Assembly: GCF_030219325.1 (NCBI RefSeq)
Contig: NZ_CP126625.1
Coordinates: 3,088,857-3,152,856, forward strand
From: Geothrix sp.
Lineage (GTDB): Bacteria > Acidobacteriota > Holophagae > Holophagales > Holophagaceae
Direction of reading: 5' to 3'
Length of the DNA: 64,000 nucleotides
The notes under the pieces are model-generated. The model had not been told where the DNA came from and made no database searches. It was given only the letters and a program-made list of their open reading frames with translations. This document shows positions 6,676-51,882 of this stretch, in pieces. Each line of letters starts with the position of its first letter. Positions within the stretch are counted from its first letter, which is position 1. Position numbers and translations under genes: made by a program.

Positions 6676-8331
6676 TCAGAATCCGGAGAACACGACCACG
6701 GAGTAGGCCGCGTAGGTGCCATCGGGCTTGGGCACCACGGCCACCCGGGTCACGGCGGGGGCGACGAGCTTGGTGGCCCAGGCGCTCTCGGGAATGGCCG
6801 TCACGGTGATGACGCCGGACTGGTTCGCCACTTCGAGGACGGCGGGCTGCATGCCCACGGTGGTGTTCAGGCTGACCGTGATGTTCTGCGTGGCCGCGGC
6901 GGAGTTGGTGAAGGTGAAGCCGAGCTGCCCGCCATTGTACGAGGTGCTGATGGTGCCCTTGGGCAGCGCCACGGGCAGGAAGATCGCGTTGTTGGCATCC
7001 CAGGCGCTGGTGCCGCTGTTCCAGACCAGGTCGCTCACGCCACGGACCCTGACGTCACCCGAGCCGGCGCAGGCAGCCGCGAAGGCGCCGCTGCTCGTGG
7101 AGGTCACGCCGGGGAAGCCGAGATACCACCAGGTGAAGGGATTGGCGTAGGCGTGGACCCGGTCGCCGGCCACAGGGTGGGTGTAGGTGAACTGGGTGGC
7201 GTCCGCCACCTTGATGGCACCGCCATCCACGGCCCGCTGGATGTTCACGGACTTGGCGTGCATCGGCACCTGCAGCGGATCTTTCACGTCCACCTGGACC
7301 TTGAAGCCCACCCACACATCGGCCAGGGTGGCCGTTCCAGTCCCGAGGGTCTGGTCCGTGCGGAAGGTGAAGGTGGTGTCGGCATCGATGGCGATGGCGC
7401 GGGGCACGCTGGCATTGGTGCTGACCAGCAGCTTGTTGTTCACGCGGTCCACCCCGACGACGTGACCCTCGGGGGTCCAGCCCGGCAGGGCGTTGACGCC
7501 GTACCACACCCGCACCGCCCAGAGGCTGCCGTCGCTCTGCATGCGCAGAGACACCAGCGCGTTCTTGCCCGCCGCCAGGCCTGCGAAGCTGCCCACGGTC
7601 TTGGTGTCCGCATCGAAGAACCAGGCGCCGGCGCCCACGTTCACGGTGAGGTCGTTCCCGCTGTCCGTGTGCAGCACGAAGCTGGAGGCGCCGACGGAGG
7701 CGATGGTGCCGCGGCGGTGCCGGAACATCATCTGGCCCATGCCCATCATGCCGTTCGGGTTGGGACGATGCTTGACCTGCAGGTTCAGGACCCAGTCGCC
7801 GTTGGGCAGCTGGACCAGGAAGAGGGGATGGCCCAGGTCGAAGTCGATCTGCACGGCATTGCTGCCGGTGGTGGTCACCACCAGGTCCGTCTCGAGAGCG
7901 ACGAGCACGCTGGCGCCGTTCACGTGCACCTGGCCGGCGGGCACGGTGGTGCCATCGGCCTTCACCAGGTTCACGCTCGCGGGATCGATGGTGACGCGCA
8001 GCGCGTCATAGGTGCCCACGGGAAGCTGGGCGGTGGCGAGCAGCTCGCCCACGCTGTCGAGGTCCACCAGGTTGATCTTGGCGGTGGCGCCCTCGAAGGC
8101 CACGACTTCCTTGGCATGGTCGGCCTTGCTCCGCAGGGTGATCTTGGTGACCACCACCTCGACGGCCGACCACTGGTCCGAGGGGGCGTCGGTCAGGATG
8201 ATCGAGGCCGAGCCGGTGGCCACGGGGGCCGGGGACGAGGAGCCGCTGCTGCCACCGCAGGCCACGGTCAGGGCCAGGGTGGTGAGGGCGGGCACCGCCA
8301 GCAGGGAGAAGGTCTTGAGCGAAGGGCGCAT
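6676..8331 (-). CDS. DUF4382 domain lipoprotein
   Basis: A 551-residue lipoprotein. The leader ends in LALTVACGG, a lipobox with modified Cys near residue 25, followed by a Ser/Gly-rich tether. Residues about 35-185 match DUF4382: the opening SIILTDAPSDQWSAVEVVVTKI, later LPVGTYDALRVTI, and a strand near DFDLGHPLFLV. The remainder is beta-rich with repeated strand patterns and no recognised catalytic motif. DUF4382 proteins are cell-surface or periplasmic and of unknown function. ATG 8331 follows a GGAGATCCCC ribosome-binding site; the reading frame extends upstream but is not leader-like. The gene diverges from the next one at 8472. Confidence 0.83.
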   Translation of the reverse strand: MRPSLKTFSLLAVPALTTLALTVACGGSSGSSSPAPVATGSASIILTDAPSDQWSAVEVVVTKITLRSKADHAKEVVAFEGATAKINLVDLDSVGELLATAQLPVGTYDALRVTIDPASVNLVKADGTTVPAGQVHVNGASVLVALETDLVVTTTGSNAVQIDFDLGHPLFLVQLPNGDWVLNLQVKHRPNPNGMMGMGQMMFRHRRGTIASVGASSFVLHTDSGNDLTVNVGAGAWFFDADTKTVGSFAGLAAGKNALVSLRMQSDGSLWAVRVWYGVNALPGWTPEGHVVGVDRVNNKLLVSTNASVPRAIAIDADTTFTFRTDQTLGTGTATLADVWVGFKVQVDVKDPLQVPMHAKSVNIQRAVDGGAIKVADATQFTYTHPVAGDRVHAYANPFTWWYLGFPGVTSTSSGAFAAACAGSGDVRVRGVSDLVWNSGTSAWDANNAIFLPVALPKGTISTSYNGGQLGFTFTNSAAATQNITVSLNTTVGMQPAVLEVANQSGVITVTAIPESAWATKLVAPAVTRVAVVPKPDGTYAAYSVVVFSGF

Positions 8332-8471
8332 GGGGATCTCCAGAGGTCGGAGCCGGGGCTCCAGATGAGAGGGTGAGGAATCGGACAACTCCACTGACCC
8401 GGGCCGGCGGAAAAGGGTTGATGGAAGAAAGTTGGGATGGCCCTGGTCCTTGTCTTGCAATACTTCCAGCC
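8332..8471. promoter_or_regulatory. Divergent intergenic region
   Basis: A 140-base gap between the start of the minus DUF4382 gene and the start of the plus AMP-ligase-like gene. It must hold promoters for both directions. No clear sigma-70 boxes, operator palindrome or riboswitch fold were recognised by eye. Confidence 0.4.
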
Positions 8472-10285: not shown

Positions 10286-13200
10286 ATGCTGCACATGCAC
10301 CTGGGACCGCACCGAACCAGACCCGCAGTCTCCCTCCTGCTCGGGCTGGTGCTGGCCGGCAGTTCGGCAGGGCCGGGCCTCCAGGCCGCCCAACAGAAAA
10401 GGATCGTCTCCGTCCGGCGGGACGCCGACGAATCCACTCACGCGAGGTTCATCCAGACCGTCCATGGCGTCCGCGTCTGGGGTGGGGATGGCATCACCCA
10501 CGCCCGCAAGGATGGGCGTGAATTCCTGCTGACCCAATCCGTGGTGGGGGAGATCGCCGTCCATACCAGCCCGACCCTGACCTCCTCGGAAGTGCTCTGG
10601 ATCGTGTCGGAGAACCTGAAGCTGCGCGGCCCCTTTGCGGTCACGCCGAAGGTCGAGCTGGTCATCCTCCCGGAGGTGGAGCGGGTCCACCGGGACACCG
10701 GGACGCCCGTCCAGCCCAGTCAGGACCTGAATGCCATCGAGGTGGTGGAGAAGACGGTCGGCTTCCGCCTGGCCTACCACGTGCAGGCCGCCCATGGCAG
10801 CGAGACCGGCGGGGCCGCCCTGACCGGATTCCTGGTGGATGCCCACGGTGGCACCATCCTCCGGAAGTGGTCCGCCCTGGAGACGACGGGAACCGGTCTC
10901 TCCCAGTACAGCGGCACCGTCGTCCTCTCGACCGCACCCGGTGGCCTGGGCCATGAACTGCGGGACGTGGGGCGGGGCGGCAACGTCACCCTCGACATGA
11001 ACCACAGCTGGGACATGGCCCTGAACGGCGACCTCTACGAGGATGCGGATGATGTCTGGGGGGATGGCCAGCAGTACCTCCTGGGAGGGTCCACCACGGC
11101 CCCCAACGGCCAGACAGCCGCAGTGGATGCCCATTTCGGCACCCAGGTGACCTGGGATTTCTACGGCCAGGTGCTGGGCCGGAACGGGATCGACGGAGCG
11201 GGCACCCCCACCCGGGCGCGGGTCCACTTCGGCGACAACTATGACAACGCCTTCTGGTGGGACGAGTGCTTCTGCCTGACCTTCGGGGATGGCAGCAAGT
11301 TCAAGACACTGACCTCGCTGGACGTGGTCGGACACGAGTTCAGCCACGGCGTCACCTTCGCCACGGCTGGCCTGATCTACAGCGGAGAATCCGGATCCCT
11401 CAACGAGGCCACCTCGGACATCCTCGGCACCATGGTCGAGTTCTACGCCAGAGGCGCCAGCGGCAAGGGAGCCGTGGTGCCCGACACCGGCGGGAACTGG
11501 ACCATCGGCGAGCAGCTGAGCACTCCGGCCTTCAACCATCCGCTCCGCTACATGTACAAGCCGAGCCTGGACGGATCGAGCCCCGACGCCTGGTCCGCCA
11601 GCCTGGTCAACCTCGACGTCCACTACGGAAGCGGCCCCATGAACCGCTGCTTCTACTTCCTGGCCCAGGGGGCCTCCGCGAACGCCGCCTCGGTGTATGC
11701 CTCGCCCTACCTGCCCGGGGGCATGAGCGGCCTCGGCAACGACAAGGCCACCCGGATCTGGTACCGCGCTCTGACCACCTACCTCACCTCGGCCAGCACC
11801 TACCTCCATGCGCGCATGGCCGCCCTGCGGGCCGCCATCGATCTCTACGGCCCGGGCTCGGCCGAATTCCAGGCTGTCCGGAACGCCTTCGCGGCCATCA
11901 ACGTGGGCTATGCCTCCGGAGACGGGGACGACCTGGAACCCCCCACCGTGTCCGCCTCCGTGGACGGCAGCACCGGCACCATCCAGTTCACCGCCCACGC
12001 GCAGGACAACAAGGGCGTGGCGTTGCTGGTCTACTTCGTGGATCAACGCCGAGTGGCGACCCGCACGCTGGGCGGGCAGGCCAGCATCATCGACGGGCTG
12101 GCCTTCGACTCGCGCAGCATCCCCAAGGGACCGCACACCCTCACCCTCGCCGCGACCGATACGGTGGGCAACGTCACCTACTCCGCGCCGGTCCCCTTCC
12201 AGCTGTCGAACCCGTTCTATGAGCTGCTTCTGCAGGGCGACTTCGAATTCGGCAGCCTCTACGACGGCGGCATCGACAAACGGCACTCGGCCTGGGTCGA
12301 TCCCATCGGCGTCATCTCTCAGGCCTGGCCCTACTTGGGCTGGTGGTGCGGCGATTTCTGCGGCGTCGGCGACACCAACACGCAGTCGATCCACCAGACC
12401 GTGACGATCCCCGCCGAGGCCCAGAGTGCAGTCCTGAGCTTCTGGCTCGAGGTCTTCTCCCAGGAACCCGACGACCGGGCCCGGGATACCTTCCAGGTCC
12501 AGGTCCGGGCCACCACCGGGGAAGTTCTCGAGACCCTGGCGACCTATTCCAACCTGGATCGCAGCCGGATCGCGATCCCCATTCCGGCCAAGAAGGACTA
12601 CCGCCAGCATCTTCTCGATCTGTCCGCCTACCGTGGGAAGACCGTGCAGCTCTGGTTCGAAGGACGGGAGGACGCGGCACATCCGGTCCCTGCCATCGCC
12701 CCAGTAGCGGTGCGCCCTGCGGTTCCCATGGTGGTACCCTCGCCCGGCCAGGACCGGCAGATCGCCAAATCAGACACGATCTCCGGCGTCACGTTCTACC
12801 CCAGTGGCGTCGGCCTCTCCGAATTCCTCCTCGACAACGTGTCCCTCAGGATCGGGGAGGCCCCGGATACGGAAGCACCCGTGGTCTGGAGCAGGGGCAT
12901 CCGTGGAACCAGCGGAGTGATCGAGCTCAGCGCCGACGGCCAGGACAACCTGGCCATCACCCGCATCGACTTCCTGGTGGATGGCGTCCTGGTGGGCACC
13001 ACGACCTCGGGCCCCCACAGGCTGTCCTTCGATTCGCGGGGCCTCGCCGATGGCAACCACCAGCTCGTGCTGAATGCCTTCGATGCCGCCGGGAACAAGG
13101 GGGCCTCGTCGCCCCTGGGCTTCACCACGGACAACACCTCTGCCCAGATCCTGAAGAACCCGGGGTTCGAGGCCGGACTCGCCGACTGGACCTTCACCAA

Positions 13201-14047
13201 CTGGAGCGTCGCCTGGAGCAGCTCCATCTACGACACCGAAGTGGAGACCCTCGCCGGCAATGCCGGCGTCATGGGGCCCGCCCTCCCGGCCATCCTCTCC
13301 CAGCCCGTGTCGATTCCGGCGAATGCCGCCTCGGCCACCCTGACGTTCCCCTACGGCATGCTGTCCTTCTCCAATCCCCCGGATGACAGCCTCAAGGTGC
13401 AGGTCCGGGACCCGAGCGGCGCGGTCCGGGCGACCCTCGCGACCATCGCACCCCCCAACACGGATGCGTACTACGGCCAGGCGGAAGTCAGCCTCCTGGA
13501 TTTCCGTGGCCAGGACATCGTGCTGGCCCTCGTCCTGAACACAGTCTCCCTTCCCCCGGGCGGAGGCGCGATGAAGGGCCTGGCGGTCAACCTGACCCAG
13601 GTCGACCTGGTGGTGCAGACTTCCCAGTTTCCTTCCATCTTCACCCAGCCCGTCAGCTGCTCCGTGTCCGCAGGCACCCAGGTCACCTTCTCCGTGGTCG
13701 CCGGAGGCACGGGGCCCCTCTCCTACCAGTGGCGGAAGGACGGCGTTGACATTCCCGGTGCCCGGGCCAGCAGCCTGACCATCCCCGGGGCCGCAGCAAG
13801 AGATGAGGGCAGCTACCAGGTCCTGGTCACCAACGGCCAGGGCAGTGTCCTGAGCGCGGCGGCGACCTTGAAGGTGCTGACCATCGTCTTCGACCTCAAC
13901 GCCGATGGGTCCGTCAACGTGCTCGACCTGGCATGGTTCCTGAAGCACTACGCCCCGGGCGTCCCCGTGGCCAACTCCCCCGCAGACCTGAATGCGGACG
14001 GCTTCGTCGATGACGCCGACCTGGCTCTGCTGCTGGCCCGGCTATGA
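10286..14047 (+). CDS. Secreted M4 (thermolysin-family) metalloprotease with Ig-like and dockerin domains
   Basis: A 1253-residue exported protease. Order: signal peptide (about 1-35), FTP/PepSY-type propeptide (about 40-200), M4 catalytic domain (about 215-560) with zinc site HEFSH (His350, Glu351, His354) and Glu374 in NEATSD at the thermolysin spacing, then an Ig-like bacterial domain, a jelly-roll-like region, a second Ig-like/jelly-roll pair, an I-set Ig-like domain (about 1115-1195) and a type I dockerin (about 1197-1253). The dockerin has two calcium-loop repeats, DLNADGSVNVLDL and DLNADGFVDDADL. ATG 10286 has GGAGGG close upstream; ATG 10295 is an alternative. The stop overlaps the next start as ATGA. 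A paralogue lies at 49543. Confidence 0.9.
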   Translation: MLHMHLGPHRTRPAVSLLLGLVLAGSSAGPGLQAAQQKRIVSVRRDADESTHARFIQTVHGVRVWGGDGITHARKDGREFLLTQSVVGEIAVHTSPTLTSSEVLWIVSENLKLRGPFAVTPKVELVILPEVERVHRDTGTPVQPSQDLNAIEVVEKTVGFRLAYHVQAAHGSETGGAALTGFLVDAHGGTILRKWSALETTGTGLSQYSGTVVLSTAPGGLGHELRDVGRGGNVTLDMNHSWDMALNGDLYEDADDVWGDGQQYLLGGSTTAPNGQTAAVDAHFGTQVTWDFYGQVLGRNGIDGAGTPTRARVHFGDNYDNAFWWDECFCLTFGDGSKFKTLTSLDVVGHEFSHGVTFATAGLIYSGESGSLNEATSDILGTMVEFYARGASGKGAVVPDTGGNWTIGEQLSTPAFNHPLRYMYKPSLDGSSPDAWSASLVNLDVHYGSGPMNRCFYFLAQGASANAASVYASPYLPGGMSGLGNDKATRIWYRALTTYLTSASTYLHARMAALRAAIDLYGPGSAEFQAVRNAFAAINVGYASGDGDDLEPPTVSASVDGSTGTIQFTAHAQDNKGVALLVYFVDQRRVATRTLGGQASIIDGLAFDSRSIPKGPHTLTLAATDTVGNVTYSAPVPFQLSNPFYELLLQGDFEFGSLYDGGIDKRHSAWVDPIGVISQAWPYLGWWCGDFCGVGDTNTQSIHQTVTIPAEAQSAVLSFWLEVFSQEPDDRARDTFQVQVRATTGEVLETLATYSNLDRSRIAIPIPAKKDYRQHLLDLSAYRGKTVQLWFEGREDAAHPVPAIAPVAVRPAVPMVVPSPGQDRQIAKSDTISGVTFYPSGVGLSEFLLDNVSLRIGEAPDTEAPVVWSRGIRGTSGVIELSADGQDNLAITRIDFLVDGVLVGTTTSGPHRLSFDSRGLADGNHQLVLNAFDAAGNKGASSPLGFTTDNTSAQILKNPGFEAGLADWTFTNWSVAWSSSIYDTEVETLAGNAGVMGPALPAILSQPVSIPANAASATLTFPYGMLSFSNPPDDSLKVQVRDPSGAVRATLATIAPPNTDAYYGQAEVSLLDFRGQDIVLALVLNTVSLPPGGGAMKGLAVNLTQVDLVVQTSQFPSIFTQPVSCSVSAGTQVTFSVVAGGTGPLSYQWRKDGVDIPGARASSLTIPGAAARDEGSYQVLVTNGQGSVLSAAATLKVLTIVFDLNADGSVNVLDLAWFLKHYAPGVPVANSPADLNADGFVDDADLALLLARL

Positions 14048-14616
14048 GAAAGGCCCTCATGCTCCGAGTCAAATCCACCCTGGGATGCGCTGTCCTGGCG
14101 CTCGCGGTCGCCTGCGGCGGCGGCGGCAACCCGCCCCCGCCCCCGCCCGCCATGGCGACAGCACTGGCCTATACGGACCCCGTCAGTGCCGACTACCGCC
14201 TCCTGGGGAATGCCGCCCTCTCCACACCCTCCCGGCTCGTGCTGGACCTCGTGGGGCCGTCCAGCCAGAACGGCCAGGGCCTGGCGTTCATCCTCACGGC
14301 CGATCCCGCCAAGGTCTCCTGGGTCCAGCCACCGAACACCACCGGGCTGGTCCAGAACCTGGCCTTCGATCCCGGCGGCGCCGTGGTCCTGACAGGCACG
14401 GACAAGGGCGGCGGCGCGCTGCATGGGGCGGTCTTCCGGAAGGCGGGGGCCGTTCCGCTCGGCCAGCCCCTCGCCCGCATCTGCCTCGTTCTCAAGGCCA
14501 ATGCCGTCCCGGTCAACACCACCATCGGGTTCACCCTCACGGCGGGGAACACCCTCTCCGACACCGGCACGGTTCTTCCCCTCACCCTTGCCACAGGCAC
14601 CCTGGTCGCGAAGTAG
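14044..14616 (+). CDS. Lipoprotein with possible cohesin-like domain, coupled to dockerin protease
   Basis: A 190-residue lipoprotein. The leader ends LALAVACGGGG (lipobox LAVAC, Cys24), followed by a Pro tether. The single beta-rich domain (about 40-190) has a cohesin-like pattern: RLVLDLVGPSSQNGQGLAFI, then DPAKVSW where cohesins have DPxVLxV, and near the end LARICLVLKANAVPVNTTIGF, like the closing strands of cohesins. It is weakly diagnostic. The ATG overlaps the protease stop by four bases (ATGA), a strong sign of translational coupling. An outer-membrane anchor that binds the protease dockerin would explain the pair; this is inference. Alternatively it is an uncharacterised surface lipoprotein. 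Confidence 0.55.
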   Translation: MRKALMLRVKSTLGCAVLALAVACGGGGNPPPPPPAMATALAYTDPVSADYRLLGNAALSTPSRLVLDLVGPSSQNGQGLAFILTADPAKVSWVQPPNTTGLVQNLAFDPGGAVVLTGTDKGGGALHGAVFRKAGAVPLGQPLARICLVLKANAVPVNTTIGFTLTAGNTLSDTGTVLPLTLATGTLVAK

Positions 14617-14661: not shown

Positions 14662-15474
14662 TCAGTCCAGCGTGATGGCGCCGTTCACGGTCTCGATGTC
14701 GATGCCCTGGTCGCCGCCGGGGAAGACGGCGGTGACGCGGTGCTTCTTCACGTCGACCTGCTCGGCGCCCTTGGCGTTGAAGGAGATCCCGCCGTTGACC
14801 GTGCTGGCCTTCAGGCGGCCCTTCAGGCCGCCCAGCTGGAGCTGGATGGAGCCGTTCACGGTCTCCGCCTTGATGCCCCTGCCCTGACCGTCCAGGCCCG
14901 AGCCCTTGATGGCGCCGTTGACGGTCTGCAGGTTCAGGCTGCCCTTCACCTGGTCAAGGTTGATGCTGCCATTCACGGTCTCGGCCTTCAGCTGCTCCTG
15001 CAGGTTGGAGGCGCGAATACCGCCGTTCACGGTGCTGAGGACGGCCTTGCCCTGGGTGCCATTGACGCTGACCTCCCCATTCACGGTCTCGATCGTGGGC
15101 GCGATGCGGCGAGGCACCTTGAGGGTCATCTGGCACTGGGGCCCCTGGTACGAACCCCAGCCGGTGTGCTTGGGGTACTCGCCCCGGATCTCCAGGGCGC
15201 CATTGCCGGCCTCGACCACCACCTTCACCTGCTCGTCCCTGCTGCTGGGCTTGAACTCGCCCGTGAACTGGACCTCCTCGCGATCCCAGGCCTCCACATG
15301 GATGAAGCCGTTGACGTTCTTCACCTTCAGAGTGGAACCCGAGGCCAGCGGCAGGGTGCGCGTCTCGGTGGTCTTCTCCGCCTTGGCGGGCTGGATCACC
15401 TGGGACTGGGCCGCCAGTGAGGCGCAGAGGATGACGGCGGCAACGGCCGCGGCGAGGGGTCGGGCGAGGGCCAT
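14662..15474 (-). CDS. DUF4097 secreted beta-repeat protein with TVNG turns
   Basis: A 270-residue exported protein. A signal peptide ending SLAAQ precedes a DUF4097-type repeat domain. Seven turns carry the T-V-N-G motif (for example ETVNGSINL, QTVNGAIKG, STVNGGISF) spaced about 19-21 residues, suggesting a stacked beta-helix or roll. Family members are called adhesin-like but have no proven role. ATG 15474 has AGGAGG upstream at an ideal distance. It lies just downstream of, and in the same direction as, the TonB receptor gene. A paralogue at 29684 has the same architecture with TTNG turns. Confidence 0.8.
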   Translation of the reverse strand: MALARPLAAAVAAVILCASLAAQSQVIQPAKAEKTTETRTLPLASGSTLKVKNVNGFIHVEAWDREEVQFTGEFKPSSRDEQVKVVVEAGNGALEIRGEYPKHTGWGSYQGPQCQMTLKVPRRIAPTIETVNGEVSVNGTQGKAVLSTVNGGIRASNLQEQLKAETVNGSINLDQVKGSLNLQTVNGAIKGSGLDGQGRGIKAETVNGSIQLQLGGLKGRLKASTVNGGISFNAKGAEQVDVKKHRVTAVFPGGDQGIDIETVNGAITLD

Positions 15475-15539
15475 GGGAGCCTCCTGGATGTCAGAGATCG
15501 TGCGTGGGCTACGAGACATGTCGGAGGGCGTTTAGGGGA

Positions 15540-18419
15540 CTAGAACTTCAACCCCGTGCTGAGGTACATCCGCCTGGCCCGCCCGTAGTTGGTGGGACCG
15601 GCCGCCCCAAAGCCCGAATTGGGGGCGAAGGGCGTGGAGATCGGATCGCCGGAGGCCAGGGCCGCATAGCCGGTGCCAAAGGTGACCTGCTGCTGGTGGT
15701 TGAAGACATTCTCCACCACCGCCTTCACGTAGGCACTGGCCTTGCGACCATTTCCGAATGTCAGGAGCCGGAAGTCCTGCTGCACGCTGAGGTCCAGGTA
15801 GTACTGGGAGTGGTAGGTCCCGTCGCCCCGCATGTTGTTGCGGTACTGGTAGAGGCGCAGCCCGGCAGCCTGGGGATCGATGGCGGGGTTGAGGCTGCTG
15901 GGATCGGTGATGACCCGGATGTGGCTGTAGGTCTGAGGGCCGTCATAGCTGAACAGCAGGCCGGTCGTGAGCTCGCCCAGGGGGTTGGCCCAGCGGGCGA
16001 TGGTGTTGATCCGGGAGCGCAGGGGCACGTGGCCCAGCAGGTAGCCATAGGGGTTCGTCACGGCGGGATCGTACATCGAGACGCCGTTCTGCACCGTGAA
16101 CCAGTCGTAGCCCGCGCCGGACCCGGGTGCGCCCTTCACCTCGCCTTCGTAGTTGCCCTTCAGGCGGCTCAGCACGAGGTTGCCGTTCACCGTGTAGCGA
16201 CCCTTCGCGAGGGCGCCTTCCAGTTCCACGCTCCGGTAGTCGCGCTTGGCGCCGGGCTCGTTGTGCCAGTAGGTGATGTAGAGGGGACTGCCGCCGCCCG
16301 GGTTGGCCACGGTGCCATCGTTGCCGGCCCGGAGGTCGATGAGGTGGTTCCAGGTCTTGCTGATGAAGGTGGCCTTCAGGTAGCCCTCGCCCAGGGTCTT
16401 GTGCTTGAAGTTGTGCAGGGCGCTCAGCTGCACCTCGTCCACCGTCTGGGCCTGCAGGTTGGGATCCACCTTGATGTTGACGGCGGCATCCGTATAGGAC
16501 AGCGGAATGGGATTGTAGTTCGCCGGATTGGCCAGGGCCGAGAAGGGCTGCACGCCCGCGGGCCCGTTGTAGCCGAAGGTGGCGGCGATGGGGTTGTTCA
16601 CGTAGGTGGCCACGCTCAGCTGGATCTCCAGCGGCTTGCCGTTGTAGCGGCTGTAGGCCGCGCCCAGGATCCAGGCGCTGTCGCCCAGGATGTCGAAGTT
16701 CACGCCCAGCCGGGGCGAGAGGGCGTTGTTCGAGGCCGTGGTCCGCTTCAGGGCCCGGTCCTCGGCGGTGTACTTGTCCCAGCGCAGGCCCAGGTTGGCG
16801 TTCCAGTGCTTGTTCAGGGACCACTTGTCGTTGACGTAGAGCGCGTGCTGCTCGGTGCCCGCCTCTCCGGGCTGGGTGAGGTAGCTGAAGGTGGTGGCGC
16901 CATCGGTGTTCACGGTGCCATTGGTCAGGTCGAGGCCGCCGGCGGCGACATAGGAATTCCAGGCCTTTCCGCCGATGAGGAGGTCATAGGGCGTCTGCGC
17001 CCCGGAGGCCCTGGTGGTCCCCCGGTAGTAATCCCAGCCCAGGTCGAGCTGGTGGCTGCTGTCGGCGCTGGAGGCGAAGTAGGAGAACTTCAGGTTGGCG
17101 GTCTGGTTGTTCCGGATGTCCCCGGGATCCCGGGGATCGAAGTAGCCGGCCCGGTAGAAGTAGCCGTCGTCGTTGTTGAAGATGGGCAGGGCCACGTTGT
17201 TGGAGCCCACCGCGATCTTCTGGTCCTTCTTGCCGATCTTGAAGGACATGGTGAGGACATCGGTGAGGAGGCTGCGGAGTTGCAGGCCGTAGATCTCCTG
17301 GGTGAAGCGCCGCGTGCTGAAGAAGCCATCGCCGCTGCCCACGTAGTCGATGTTCGCGAAGGTCTCGCTGTAGCCGTGGTAGGTGCCCACCAGCGTGTGC
17401 CGGTCCGTGATGGCCCAGGTGAGCTTCAGCTGCCGCCGGATGTCCTTGATGTTCTGGGTGTAAGGGGCGCCCACCGGCGCCCCGATGGCCGCCTGGTCCG
17501 TGGGTAGGCTCTGGGCCGTGTCCTGGGCGGTGCTGAAGTAGCTGGTGTAGAACCAGAGCTTGGATTTCACGATGGGGCCGCCCACCTGGAACATGCGCTC
17601 CTGGTTGATCTTGTCGGAGAACGCACTGGCGTCCTCCCCGTGCCGGGCCGCCTTCCAGCGGTCGCTGCTGAGGTCCCAGCGCAGCTGGGCGGTGAACTCG
17701 TCGCCGCCGGACTTGGTGATGGTGTTCACCACGCCGCCCTCCACGTCGCCGAACTCGGCGGGGATGGCGCCCGTGATCACCTGCGTCTCTTCGATGGCGT
17801 CCGTGACGAACTTGGCGCGGGGTCCGTTGTAGACATTGTCCGCGTAGTTCTGGCCGTCCAGGAGCCACAGATTGCCCGTGCCCTGGCTGCCGCGGATCTG
17901 CATGCCGCCGCGGTCCTGGTTCAGGTTCTCCACCACGCCCGGCGCCATGAGGGCCACGTTCAGGGGGTTGCGGTCCACCGGCAGGGCGTCGATGGACTCC
18001 TTCGAGAAGTTGGTGGAGGTCTTGAACTCCGTCTTGTCCTGTCGGACCGAGGAGGCCACCACCTCGACGGTGGTTCCCGCCTCCTTGGAGAGCGTGAAGC
18101 GGCTGTTGAGGTTCTGCTCAAGGCCCAGCCGCTCCTCGCGGGTGACGGTGGTGAAACCGGCCTTGGACAGGCTGATGCGGTAGAGACCGGGGGGCAGCAG
18201 CCGCGCGGCGAAGCGGCCCCCCGCATCGGTGACCACCACGCGGACGCCCTGCAGCGAGGGGCTGCTGAGGCGGATCTCCACGCCCGCCATGGGGGCCTCT
18301 GCCGCGTCCACCACCTGACCCACGAGGCTGGCCGTCTGGGTGCCCTGGGCCAGGCCCTGGATCTGCCCGGCGGCGAGAAGGGCCGCCATGCGGCCGAAGC
18401 TGAGCAGGGTTTGTCTCAT
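15540..18419 (-). CDS. TonB-dependent receptor with carboxypeptidase-like regulatory domain (Oar-like)
   Basis: A 959-residue outer-membrane receptor. Signal peptide (about 1-25), CarboxypepD_reg domain (about 28-110, GQVVDAAEAPMAGVEIRL), plug domain (about 125-240, with MQIRGSQGTGNLWLLDG and VTDAIEETQVITGAIPAEFGDVEGGVVNTITKSG), then a long beta-barrel ending in a terminal Phe (STGLKF). This is the Oar/OmpA-related TonB group common in Acidobacteriota; substrates are often peptides or glycans. ATG 18419 follows GGGAGG. The DUF4097 gene lies 65 bases downstream and could be cotranscribed. Confidence 0.9.
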   Translation of the reverse strand: MRQTLLSFGRMAALLAAGQIQGLAQGTQTASLVGQVVDAAEAPMAGVEIRLSSPSLQGVRVVVTDAGGRFAARLLPPGLYRISLSKAGFTTVTREERLGLEQNLNSRFTLSKEAGTTVEVVASSVRQDKTEFKTSTNFSKESIDALPVDRNPLNVALMAPGVVENLNQDRGGMQIRGSQGTGNLWLLDGQNYADNVYNGPRAKFVTDAIEETQVITGAIPAEFGDVEGGVVNTITKSGGDEFTAQLRWDLSSDRWKAARHGEDASAFSDKINQERMFQVGGPIVKSKLWFYTSYFSTAQDTAQSLPTDQAAIGAPVGAPYTQNIKDIRRQLKLTWAITDRHTLVGTYHGYSETFANIDYVGSGDGFFSTRRFTQEIYGLQLRSLLTDVLTMSFKIGKKDQKIAVGSNNVALPIFNNDDGYFYRAGYFDPRDPGDIRNNQTANLKFSYFASSADSSHQLDLGWDYYRGTTRASGAQTPYDLLIGGKAWNSYVAAGGLDLTNGTVNTDGATTFSYLTQPGEAGTEQHALYVNDKWSLNKHWNANLGLRWDKYTAEDRALKRTTASNNALSPRLGVNFDILGDSAWILGAAYSRYNGKPLEIQLSVATYVNNPIAATFGYNGPAGVQPFSALANPANYNPIPLSYTDAAVNIKVDPNLQAQTVDEVQLSALHNFKHKTLGEGYLKATFISKTWNHLIDLRAGNDGTVANPGGGSPLYITYWHNEPGAKRDYRSVELEGALAKGRYTVNGNLVLSRLKGNYEGEVKGAPGSGAGYDWFTVQNGVSMYDPAVTNPYGYLLGHVPLRSRINTIARWANPLGELTTGLLFSYDGPQTYSHIRVITDPSSLNPAIDPQAAGLRLYQYRNNMRGDGTYHSQYYLDLSVQQDFRLLTFGNGRKASAYVKAVVENVFNHQQQVTFGTGYAALASGDPISTPFAPNSGFGAAGPTNYGRARRMYLSTGLKF

Positions 18420-18595
18420 GGTGGACCTCCCAAAGGTGGTTGAGACAGGAAACCTGCGATCCAACCCTTCCCTCTGGAAGGCTTTAGGGGCGAGGCCCAC
18501 CAGTGCGGGACGAGCCGTGGCCCGGCAGGGGGGAACCGCCGGAACCTCCGCCGACGGGGACCCGGGCCGCTATACTCAGCCCTTCCGGAGCGTCC

Positions 18596-49507: not shown

Positions 49508-49542
49508 GTGAACCCCCCCCCTTCCCCCGTGAGGAGTTGCCC

Positions 49543-51882
49543 ATGGCGACTACCAAAGGCCGCTTGGCCCTGTCCTTCGTCACCGCAGCCCTGGCTGCCG
49601 GTTCCCTTTTCGCCAGCTCACCGCAGGAGACCCTGCGCGTGAACAGTGCCGCTGAACGCCTCCACGCGAGCCGGGCCCAGCTGGGCCTGGATGCCGACCA
49701 CGCGTTCAGCCTGCGCACCTCGCACTCGGATGACCTCGGCCAGACCCATGGCCACTTCACCCAGCTCTACAAGGGCGTGCGGGTCTGGGGCGGCGACGCC
49801 ATCACCCACACTGACCGCAACGGCGCCGACCTGCCGCTGACCAACGCCCTGCACAAGAACATCCTCCTGAACGTGACGCCCTCCCTGGCCTCGGGCGAGG
49901 CCCTGGCCGTGGTCCAGTCGGACCTGTCCCCCAAGGGCGCCTTCTCCTACGTCCCCACCACGGAACTCGTGGTCTTCCCCCAGGAAGTCGACGTCCCCGT
50001 CCGCCGGGCCGGCCGCCTTTCGCTGGACCAGGAACTCAGTGCCACCGAGGTCACCCGGCAGGTGGTCCGCTTCGTCCTGGCCTACCACGTCCACACCGAA
50101 CTCGAGAATGACCTCGACGGCATCAAGCACACGGACTACATGGTGGACGCCCACACCGGCGCCATCCTGAAGCAGTGGAACACCCTGCACACCTCCGCCG
50201 CCGTCGGCACGGGCAACAGCCAGTACAACGGCGTGGTGTCCCTCAACACCAACAGCACCACGTCGGGCTTCGAGATGCGCGACATGACCCGCGGCTCGGG
50301 CGGCACCTTCGGCAACAACGTGGTGACGAACTCCAACCACGCCTCCACCACCTCCACGGCCACCGGCTCCATCTACACCAACACCACGAACACCTGGGGT
50401 GACGGCGCCAACTACGTGGAAGGCAGCTCGACCACCGCCGCCAATGGCCAGACCGCCGCCGTGGACGCCATGTTCGGCATGGCGAAGTCCTGGGACTTCT
50501 ATCTGAACGTGTTCGGCCGCAACGGCATCGACGGTTCCGGCACCGCCACCTACAGCCGGGTCCACGTCAGCAACAGCTACGACAACGCCTTCTGGTCCGA
50601 CACCTGCTTCTGCATGACCTACGGCGACGGCAGCAGCTTCACCACCCTGACCGCGATCGACGTGGCCGGCCACGAGATGAGCCACGGGGTCTGCGCCCGC
50701 ACGGCCAACCTCACCTACTCCGGCGAGTCGGGCGGCCTGAACGAGTCCAACTCCGACATCTTCGGCACCATGATCGAGTTCTATTCCCGCGGAGGCTCCG
50801 GCTCCACCATCGGCAGCACCGGCGGCAACTGGACCATCGGCGAGCAGCTCGCCTCCACCCCCCTGCGCTACATGTACAAGCCCAGCCTGGACGGCGCCTC
50901 TCCGGATGCCTGGTCATCCTCCGTCGGCAGCCTCGACGTGCACTACTCCAGCGGCCCCATGAACCGCTGCTTCTACTTCCTGAGCCAGGGCGCCACCACC
51001 ACCGGCAACACCAGCACCACCTACCTGCCCTCCGGCATGACCGGCGTCGGCAATGACGCCGCCGCGAGGATCTGGTTCCGAGCCCTCTCGACCTACCTGA
51101 CGGCCAGCTCGAACTACGCCGCGGCCCGCACCGCCTCCATCAGCGCCGCCAAGGATCTCTACGGCGCCGGCAGCGCGCAGGAACAGGCCGTGTGGAACGC
51201 CTTCCACGGCATCAACGTGGGCGCCGCCTGGACATCCACCGGCGGCGACACCACCGCCCCCACCTCCACGGCCTCCGAGTCCGGCACCACGGGCACCATC
51301 ACCCTCTCTGCCACCGCCACCGACAACGTCGGCGTCACCAAGGTCGAGTTCTACATCGACGGCGCCCTCGTCGGCACCAGCACCACCTCGCCCTACAGCG
51401 TCACCTACAACTCCGCCAACCTGGCCAACGGCACCCACAGCCTCGTCGCCAAGGCCTATGACGCCGCCGGCAACGTCGGTTCCTCCTCCGCCGTCAGCTT
51501 CAGCACCAGCAACACCACCACCGGCACCACCTTCAACGAGGTGGAGAGCAACAACACCCGAGCCACTGCCAACGTGGTCGGCGATACCGTCAACAAGATC
51601 GTCGGCTACATGAGCTCCACCACCGACATCGACTACTTCAAGGTCAACGTCCAGCCCGGCAAGAGCATCACCGTCAACATGACCGGCCCCTCCGGCGTCG
51701 ACTACGACCTCTACTTCCTCAACAGCAGCGGCACCACGCTGAAGAGCAGCCTGGGCAGCACCGCCACCGAGAGCATCACCTACAGCAACACCTCGGCCAC
51801 GGCCACCGTGTTCTACATCAAGGTGATCGCCTACGCCGGCTCCAGCACCACCACCCCCTACAACCTCGCCCTCACCCGCTGA
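49543..51882 (+). CDS. Secreted M4 (thermolysin-family) metalloprotease with Ig-like and PPC domains
   Basis: A 779-residue exported protease. Signal peptide (about 1-25), FTP-type propeptide (about 35-215), M4 domain (about 225-560) with zinc site GHEMSHG and downstream Glu in NESNSD, an Ig-like domain (TATDNVGVTKVEFYIDGALVG), and a C-terminal PPC domain (EVESNNTRATAN, DIDYFKVNVQPGKSITVNMTG). It is similar in sequence to the protease at 10286 up to the first Ig domain but ends in PPC instead of a dockerin. ATG 49543 follows GAGGAG. A terminator follows the stop. Confidence 0.93.
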   Translation: MATTKGRLALSFVTAALAAGSLFASSPQETLRVNSAAERLHASRAQLGLDADHAFSLRTSHSDDLGQTHGHFTQLYKGVRVWGGDAITHTDRNGADLPLTNALHKNILLNVTPSLASGEALAVVQSDLSPKGAFSYVPTTELVVFPQEVDVPVRRAGRLSLDQELSATEVTRQVVRFVLAYHVHTELENDLDGIKHTDYMVDAHTGAILKQWNTLHTSAAVGTGNSQYNGVVSLNTNSTTSGFEMRDMTRGSGGTFGNNVVTNSNHASTTSTATGSIYTNTTNTWGDGANYVEGSSTTAANGQTAAVDAMFGMAKSWDFYLNVFGRNGIDGSGTATYSRVHVSNSYDNAFWSDTCFCMTYGDGSSFTTLTAIDVAGHEMSHGVCARTANLTYSGESGGLNESNSDIFGTMIEFYSRGGSGSTIGSTGGNWTIGEQLASTPLRYMYKPSLDGASPDAWSSSVGSLDVHYSSGPMNRCFYFLSQGATTTGNTSTTYLPSGMTGVGNDAAARIWFRALSTYLTASSNYAAARTASISAAKDLYGAGSAQEQAVWNAFHGINVGAAWTSTGGDTTAPTSTASESGTTGTITLSATATDNVGVTKVEFYIDGALVGTSTTSPYSVTYNSANLANGTHSLVAKAYDAAGNVGSSSAVSFSTSNTTTGTTFNEVESNNTRATANVVGDTVNKIVGYMSSTTDIDYFKVNVQPGKSITVNMTGPSGVDYDLYFLNSSGTTLKSSLGSTATESITYSNTSATATVFYIKVIAYAGSSTTTPYNLALTR

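Follow-up and report, generated by a model that had tools for sequence, protein, structure and literature searches.

A dockerin-tailed M4 protease and a lipid-anchored protein of predicted cohesin fold as a probable two-gene tethering module in Holophagaceae

It is chiefly from cellulosomes that cohesin-dockerin pairs are known, and cellulosome bacteria also provide examples of single-cohesin anchors. The scaffoldins OlpA and OlpC of Clostridium thermocellum and ScaE of Ruminococcus flavefaciens each place one cohesin on a surface-anchored protein that captures a dockerin partner, and are held to their Gram-positive, cellulosome-producing hosts by S-layer-homology or sortase anchoring. Docking outside cellulosomes is represented by Archaeoglobus fulgidus, ANME archaea and the secreted glycosidases of Clostridium perfringens. 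Cohesins and dockerins that belong to no cellulosome occur in both bacteria and archaea; their function is described as unclear, and the archaea that possess them lack large scaffoldins (PMC9012536; PMC10553843). The gene pair analysed here lies in a 64,000-nucleotide stretch (the window) of a 3.73 Mb Holophagaceae genome, and it resembles a cellulosome in having a dockerin on an enzyme and a predicted cohesin on its putative receptor. Like OlpA, OlpC and ScaE, the receptor has one cohesin on an anchored protein, but it differs from them in its lipid anchor, its Gram-negative host, a cohesin that is invisible to Pfam and a gene that stands in tandem with that of its cargo; from the modules of A. 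fulgidus, ANME archaea and C. perfringens it is set apart by a conserved two-gene organisation, the lipid anchor and a mostly peptidase cargo. We consider it quite probable that the two genes form a tethering module, in which a lipid-anchored single-cohesin receptor captures the co-translated dockerin enzyme and holds it at the cell envelope.

The first gene encodes a protease (Table 1) in which Pfam recognizes an FTP propeptide motif, Peptidase_M4 (E 3e-39), Peptidase_M4_C (E 2e-42), the bacterial Ig domains Big_7 and Ig_3, and Dockerin_1. Its zinc site is intact, with HEFSH and the downstream Glu of an NE motif both invariant across four M4 paralogs, such that the protein has the M4 domains, the HExxH motif and the downstream Glu of an M4 metallopeptidase. 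An earlier note on this DNA, made by reading the sequence, had assigned a two-repeat type I dockerin to the end of the protease, and the profile search bears this out: Dockerin_1 (PF00404) scores 31.2 bits (cut-off 22.9), and the tail consists of two tandem calcium-loop/helix repeats, with the calcium-loop pattern complete in both (DLNADGSVNVLD and DLNADGFVDDAD). A profile of the family's dockerins matches solved dockerins, the best being 2y3n_B (E 1.7e-10). NCBIfam model NF041540 (GC-type dockerin domain-anchored protein), which likewise takes the C-terminal dockerin of proteins from GC-rich bacteria to be an anchor, matches the protease weakly, at 16.5 bits and below the model cut-off of 29.

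Table 1. Features of the protease-lipoprotein locus and its neighbours, in window positions
Feature	Position	Strand	Details and basis
Dockerin-tailed secreted metalloprotease of the M4 (thermolysin) family, with Ig-type domains	10286-14047	+	1253 aa; Pfam and zinc motif
M4 catalytic and alpha-helical domains	10886-11905	+	residues 201-540; Pfam
Type I dockerin, two repeats	13889-14041	+	residues 1202-1252, one residue short of the protein end; PF00404
Lipoprotein with single predicted cohesin-fold domain	14044-14616	+	190 aa; sequence and predicted structure
ATGA shared by the stop of the protease and the start of the lipoprotein	14044-14047	+	read directly
Signal peptide and lipobox LAVA-C (Cys24), Gly at +2	14044-14115	+	sequence pattern
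Predicted cohesin-fold domain	14182-14613	+	residues 24-167 of mature-protein model; AlphaFold2, Foldseek, VIA
GGSSGSSS lipoprotein	6676-8460	-	not evidently tied to the pair
Protein with TVNGSI repeats (DUF4097-like by eye)	14662-15519	-	not evidently tied to the pair
TonB-dependent-receptor-like protein	15540-18500	-	not evidently tied to the pair

The overlap of the two genes and the lipid anchor of the second, both claimed in the same note, were likewise found in place: the TGA stop of the protease (14045-14047) runs into an ATG at 14044-14046, and the encoded protein begins with a signal peptide and a lipobox with its Cys, the pattern of a bacterial lipoprotein, behind which a short proline linker leads to a single domain. 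An alternative start is possible at the ATG at 14059, which stands behind GAGAAAGG and 12 nt past the protease stop, and either ATG leaves the genes coupled, or almost coupled. Across the family, the lipoprotein start falls within 20 nt of the upstream stop in all 60 of 60 pairs, and a possible start overlaps that stop by 4 or 1 nt in 38 of the 60, figures that lean short because the candidate codon closest to the stop was chosen for each pair. The lipobox pattern is present in 60 of 62 family members of the upstream type, 55 of these 60 with Gly at +2. A Gly at this position is compatible with outer-membrane sorting by Lol. A match to the NCBIfam model lipo-invert (17.9 bits, cut-off 37) covers the signal peptide and lipobox, and was dismissed.

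Searches of Pfam, NCBIfam and PDB sequences returned no useful match for the lipoprotein, and no sequence homology to known cohesins was detected by Pfam (PF00963), a PDB-sequence profile or hhalign, nor, in profile-profile comparison, to the Pfam-recognized cohesins of the same genus. One of those same-genus Pfam cohesins, itself used as a query against PDB sequences, also gave no match. A viral structure library yielded no informative match and plasmids none, and the PF00963 match that this genome does contain lies far below the cut-off, in what reads as an IPT/TIG-type repeat protein. The cohesin assignment, therefore, rests on predicted structure. From 12 family rows that included no known cohesin, and without templates, AlphaFold2 produced an all-beta model (pLDDT 86.4, pTM 0.82) with the beta-sandwich of a cohesin. 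When this model was compared with the PDB by Foldseek, all 15 of the 15 matches at E<=0.001 were cohesins. At the head of the list stand 2vo8, the cohesin of C. perfringens GH33, and the sixth ScaB cohesin of Acetivibrio cellulolyticus; the best matches are the C. perfringens cohesins 2vo8 and 2jh2. Re-alignment with VIA placed a type II cohesin first, with Z 12.2 and an rmsd of 2.9 over 135 residues; of its 50 rows, nearly all were cohesins, among them OlpA (3ul4), OlpC (4dh2), ScaE (2zf9) and the A. fulgidus cohesin 2xdh, and the first clear non-cohesin came at Z 8.6. The match extends over model residues 24-167, which is the whole domain.

It is thus strongly supported, on the evidence of the predicted fold, that the lipoprotein domain is a cohesin; as no cohesin sequence match was found, we file it as cohesin-fold and not as a PF00963 member. 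The earlier note had read cohesin-like strands from the sequence, for which Pfam, PDB-sequence and profile-profile searches were all blank, but the predicted fold is strongly supportive of the same conclusion, and a fold unrelated to cohesins, named in that note as grounds for abandoning it, is not what the top structural matches reveal. We regard as very improbable an unrelated beta-sandwich, such as a substrate- or carbohydrate-binding accessory, that resembles a cohesin and lies beside a dockerin for some other cause: the lack of sequence homology would agree with it, as would the carbohydrate-binding beta-sandwich 6qfs, which also scores E 1e-3 in Foldseek, but the unanimity of the Foldseek matches, the near-unanimity of the VIA rows with their clear Z gap, and the fact that the one constant of the neighbouring gene is a dockerin, the known partner of cohesins, all argue against it.

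The note, which described one minimal pair, also underestimated it: dockerin and lipoprotein genes recur together as a family-wide module. This genome alone encodes four such lipoproteins, each adjoining an M4 protease gene, and its only two convincing dockerins are both M4 tails beside such lipoproteins (the second scoring 21.5 bits, just below the cut-off); the other two paired M4 tails bear degenerate dockerin-like repeats. The lipoprotein was detected in 33 of 37 same-genus genomes (the tested genome and 32 of 36 relatives) and, by the same search, in 0 of 23 other genomes of the class or phylum. A deeper profile recovered it from 26 of 27 sampled family genomes and from two genomes outside Holophagaceae, and a separate scan from MAGs labelled Acidobacteria and Myxococcaceae. 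We examined 79 lipoprotein genes, mostly from Holophagaceae (Acidobacteriota), and every one adjoins either a dockerin-tailed gene (67) or an M4 gene with a degenerate dockerin-like tail (12): the dockerin gene lies directly upstream in 62 and downstream in 4, and for one further lipoprotein (L159) a downstream dockerin gene is visible in a longer stretch. The remaining 12 belong to tandem lipoprotein-M4-lipoprotein-M4 clusters (L012, L052, L135, L145, L150 and L019), whose M4 tails resemble decayed or divergent dockerins, with the first loop kept and the second altered. AlphaFold2 models of these tails reach a pLDDT of 45, and as their alignment to the dockerin profile (hhalign, 77%, E 2e-5) is only suggestive, we call them dockerin-like.

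Approached from the other side, an independent family search of 41 same-genus genomes found that 40 of 43 dockerins scoring over the cut-off have a lipoprotein gene on their own strand no more than 2.5 kb away; the three without one are at a contig end (one) or in S8 subtilases with their own Pfam cohesins and dockerins (two). The adjacency is far beyond chance, although most loci come from one genus and the pair counts are therefore not independent events. That dependence is what would be expected if a single ancestral gene pair had simply been kept by descent, with no functional interaction between its products, yet this reading is extremely improbable, given that the cargoes come from at least seven unrelated families, that genomes hold several paralogous pairs each, that both gene orders occur, that the pair is present in other Holophagaceae genera and in two genomes outside the family, and that the lipoprotein is absent beside the dockerin-less M4 genes of this genome.

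Nor is the pair confined to M4 proteases. In a scan that covered part of the cargoes, the dockerin proteins adjoining the lipoprotein included M4, M6, C1, C10 and S8/S53-type peptidases, Sortilin/BNR propellers and an NPCBM/Ig protein, and one and the same dockerin-cohesin cluster goes with M4 cargo (the window pair, L053, L057 and L059) as well as with Sortilin/Ig cargo (L058). Two M4 genes of this genome without a dockerin (window positions 49537-51882 and genome position 111817) have another end domain and no adjoining lipoprotein; the first, which served as a control, ends, by eye, in a PPC-like domain. Apart from the dockerin, the partner proteins are unrelated to one another, so it is the dockerin, not the protease, that the lipoprotein accompanies.

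Dockerin and cohesin distances are correlated (Mantel r 0.79, permutation maximum 0.27) and remain so given cargo (partial correlation 0.69), a relationship that is no proof of binding on its own, as co-inherited neighbours also give it. This co-variation of dockerin and cohesin types bears on whether each lipoprotein is dedicated to its neighbour or acts in trans, as a shared receptor for several dockerin proteins. Dockerins are alike within the genus, and one C1 papain-type protease (L157, G023:C20), with a C-terminal dockerin below the Pfam cut-off and no adjoining lipoprotein, is encoded in a genome with other pairs, whose receptor it may use; however, almost every dockerin gene has a lipoprotein of its own, and together with the co-variation this makes sharing in trans unlikely as the general rule.

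A dedicated tether would operate as follows: The protease and lipoprotein would be translated in tandem and exported, the enzyme possibly through one of the two secretins that the genome encodes, and the lipoprotein would be lipidated, leaving its mature part, one cohesin, held to the membrane. After export, the cohesin would capture the type I dockerin at the C-terminus of the secreted protease, an interaction expected to need calcium, and the protease, which could otherwise diffuse off, would be kept at the cell envelope, its outer surface being the most likely place. In other family members this dockerin-cohesin unit carries different secreted peptidases or proteins of the BNR/sortilin type, and in some lipoproteins the arm is lengthened by repeat or Ig modules that separate the cohesin from the lipid, as would be expected of an arm with outward reach. 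The gene pairing supports dockerin binding by the lipoprotein indirectly, and we infer the binding itself, its calcium dependence, the outward-facing location and the physiological benefit of the module.

The side of the membrane on which capture would occur matters for the role of the lipoprotein, which, if it bound the dockerin in the periplasm, could serve as a retention, folding or export helper, or as an inhibitor holding the enzyme before release. A lipobox indicates membrane attachment and not the face, a periplasmic enzyme could still leave through one of the secretins, and the cargoes are mostly peptidases, which often need helpers. The Sortilin/BNR and NPCBM cargoes, however, have no obvious need of a peptidase helper, and eight lipoproteins (L081, L084, L087, L088, L089, L091, L093 and L096) have stalks of variable length between the lipid-bearing Cys and the cohesin, consisting, by eye, of one to four InlB-B-like repeats or an Ig-like module, which better suit an outward-reaching arm. 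Cohesin-dockerin bonds are typically tight, which would poorly serve a transient helper. We therefore think a periplasmic helper improbable, more so than a receptor shared in trans, and favour tethering at the envelope.

The claim that the pair is single-cohesin and non-cellulosomal withstood the wider survey. Each lipoprotein has one cohesin domain, where a scaffoldin has several cohesins and a cellulose-binding module; neither a multi-cohesin scaffoldin alongside the dockerins of this genome nor a PF00963 scaffoldin anywhere in it was found; and the scanned cargoes, mostly peptidases and BNR/sortilin proteins and not hydrolases of plant polysaccharides, included no cellulase. A literature search that covered few subscription papers turned up no description of this pair in Holophagaceae and, for Geothrix or Holophaga combined with dockerin, only dbCAN module counts. 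The docking principle is known; what is new is a cohesin subfamily that Pfam does not reach, the lipid-anchor format, the mostly peptidase cargo and the fixed gene pair.

Recurring as it does family-wide, in most cases with other protein-cutting enzymes, the pair looks like a general means by which secreted enzymes are tethered to the cell, and it suggests a way in which Holophagaceae may retain their digestive enzymes. More tentatively, and with some doubt on our part, this sequence-undetectable cohesin family might constitute a general plug-in of the Holophagaceae: docking would be specific to each pair, possibly providing orthogonal lipid anchors that display several peptidases side by side, and cargo would be swapped in evolution while the docking unit stays. 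The family also illustrates that cohesins can hide below profile detection, and its approximately 60 natural, partner-labelled dockerin-cohesin pairs are a resource for studies of specificity.

Two further observations concern the margins of this distribution. The short contig JAKEEX010000665.1 (L019), from the MAG labelled Myxococcaceae, contains a tandem lipoprotein-M4 cluster as in Holophagaceae, which reflects either horizontal transfer or wrong binning. Two same-genus genomes encode large S8 subtilase-like proteins (L147:3-5249 in G030:C243 and L148:2-4723 in G031:C403) that, unlike the lipoprotein pairs, combine Pfam-detected cohesins and dockerin repeats in the same chain.
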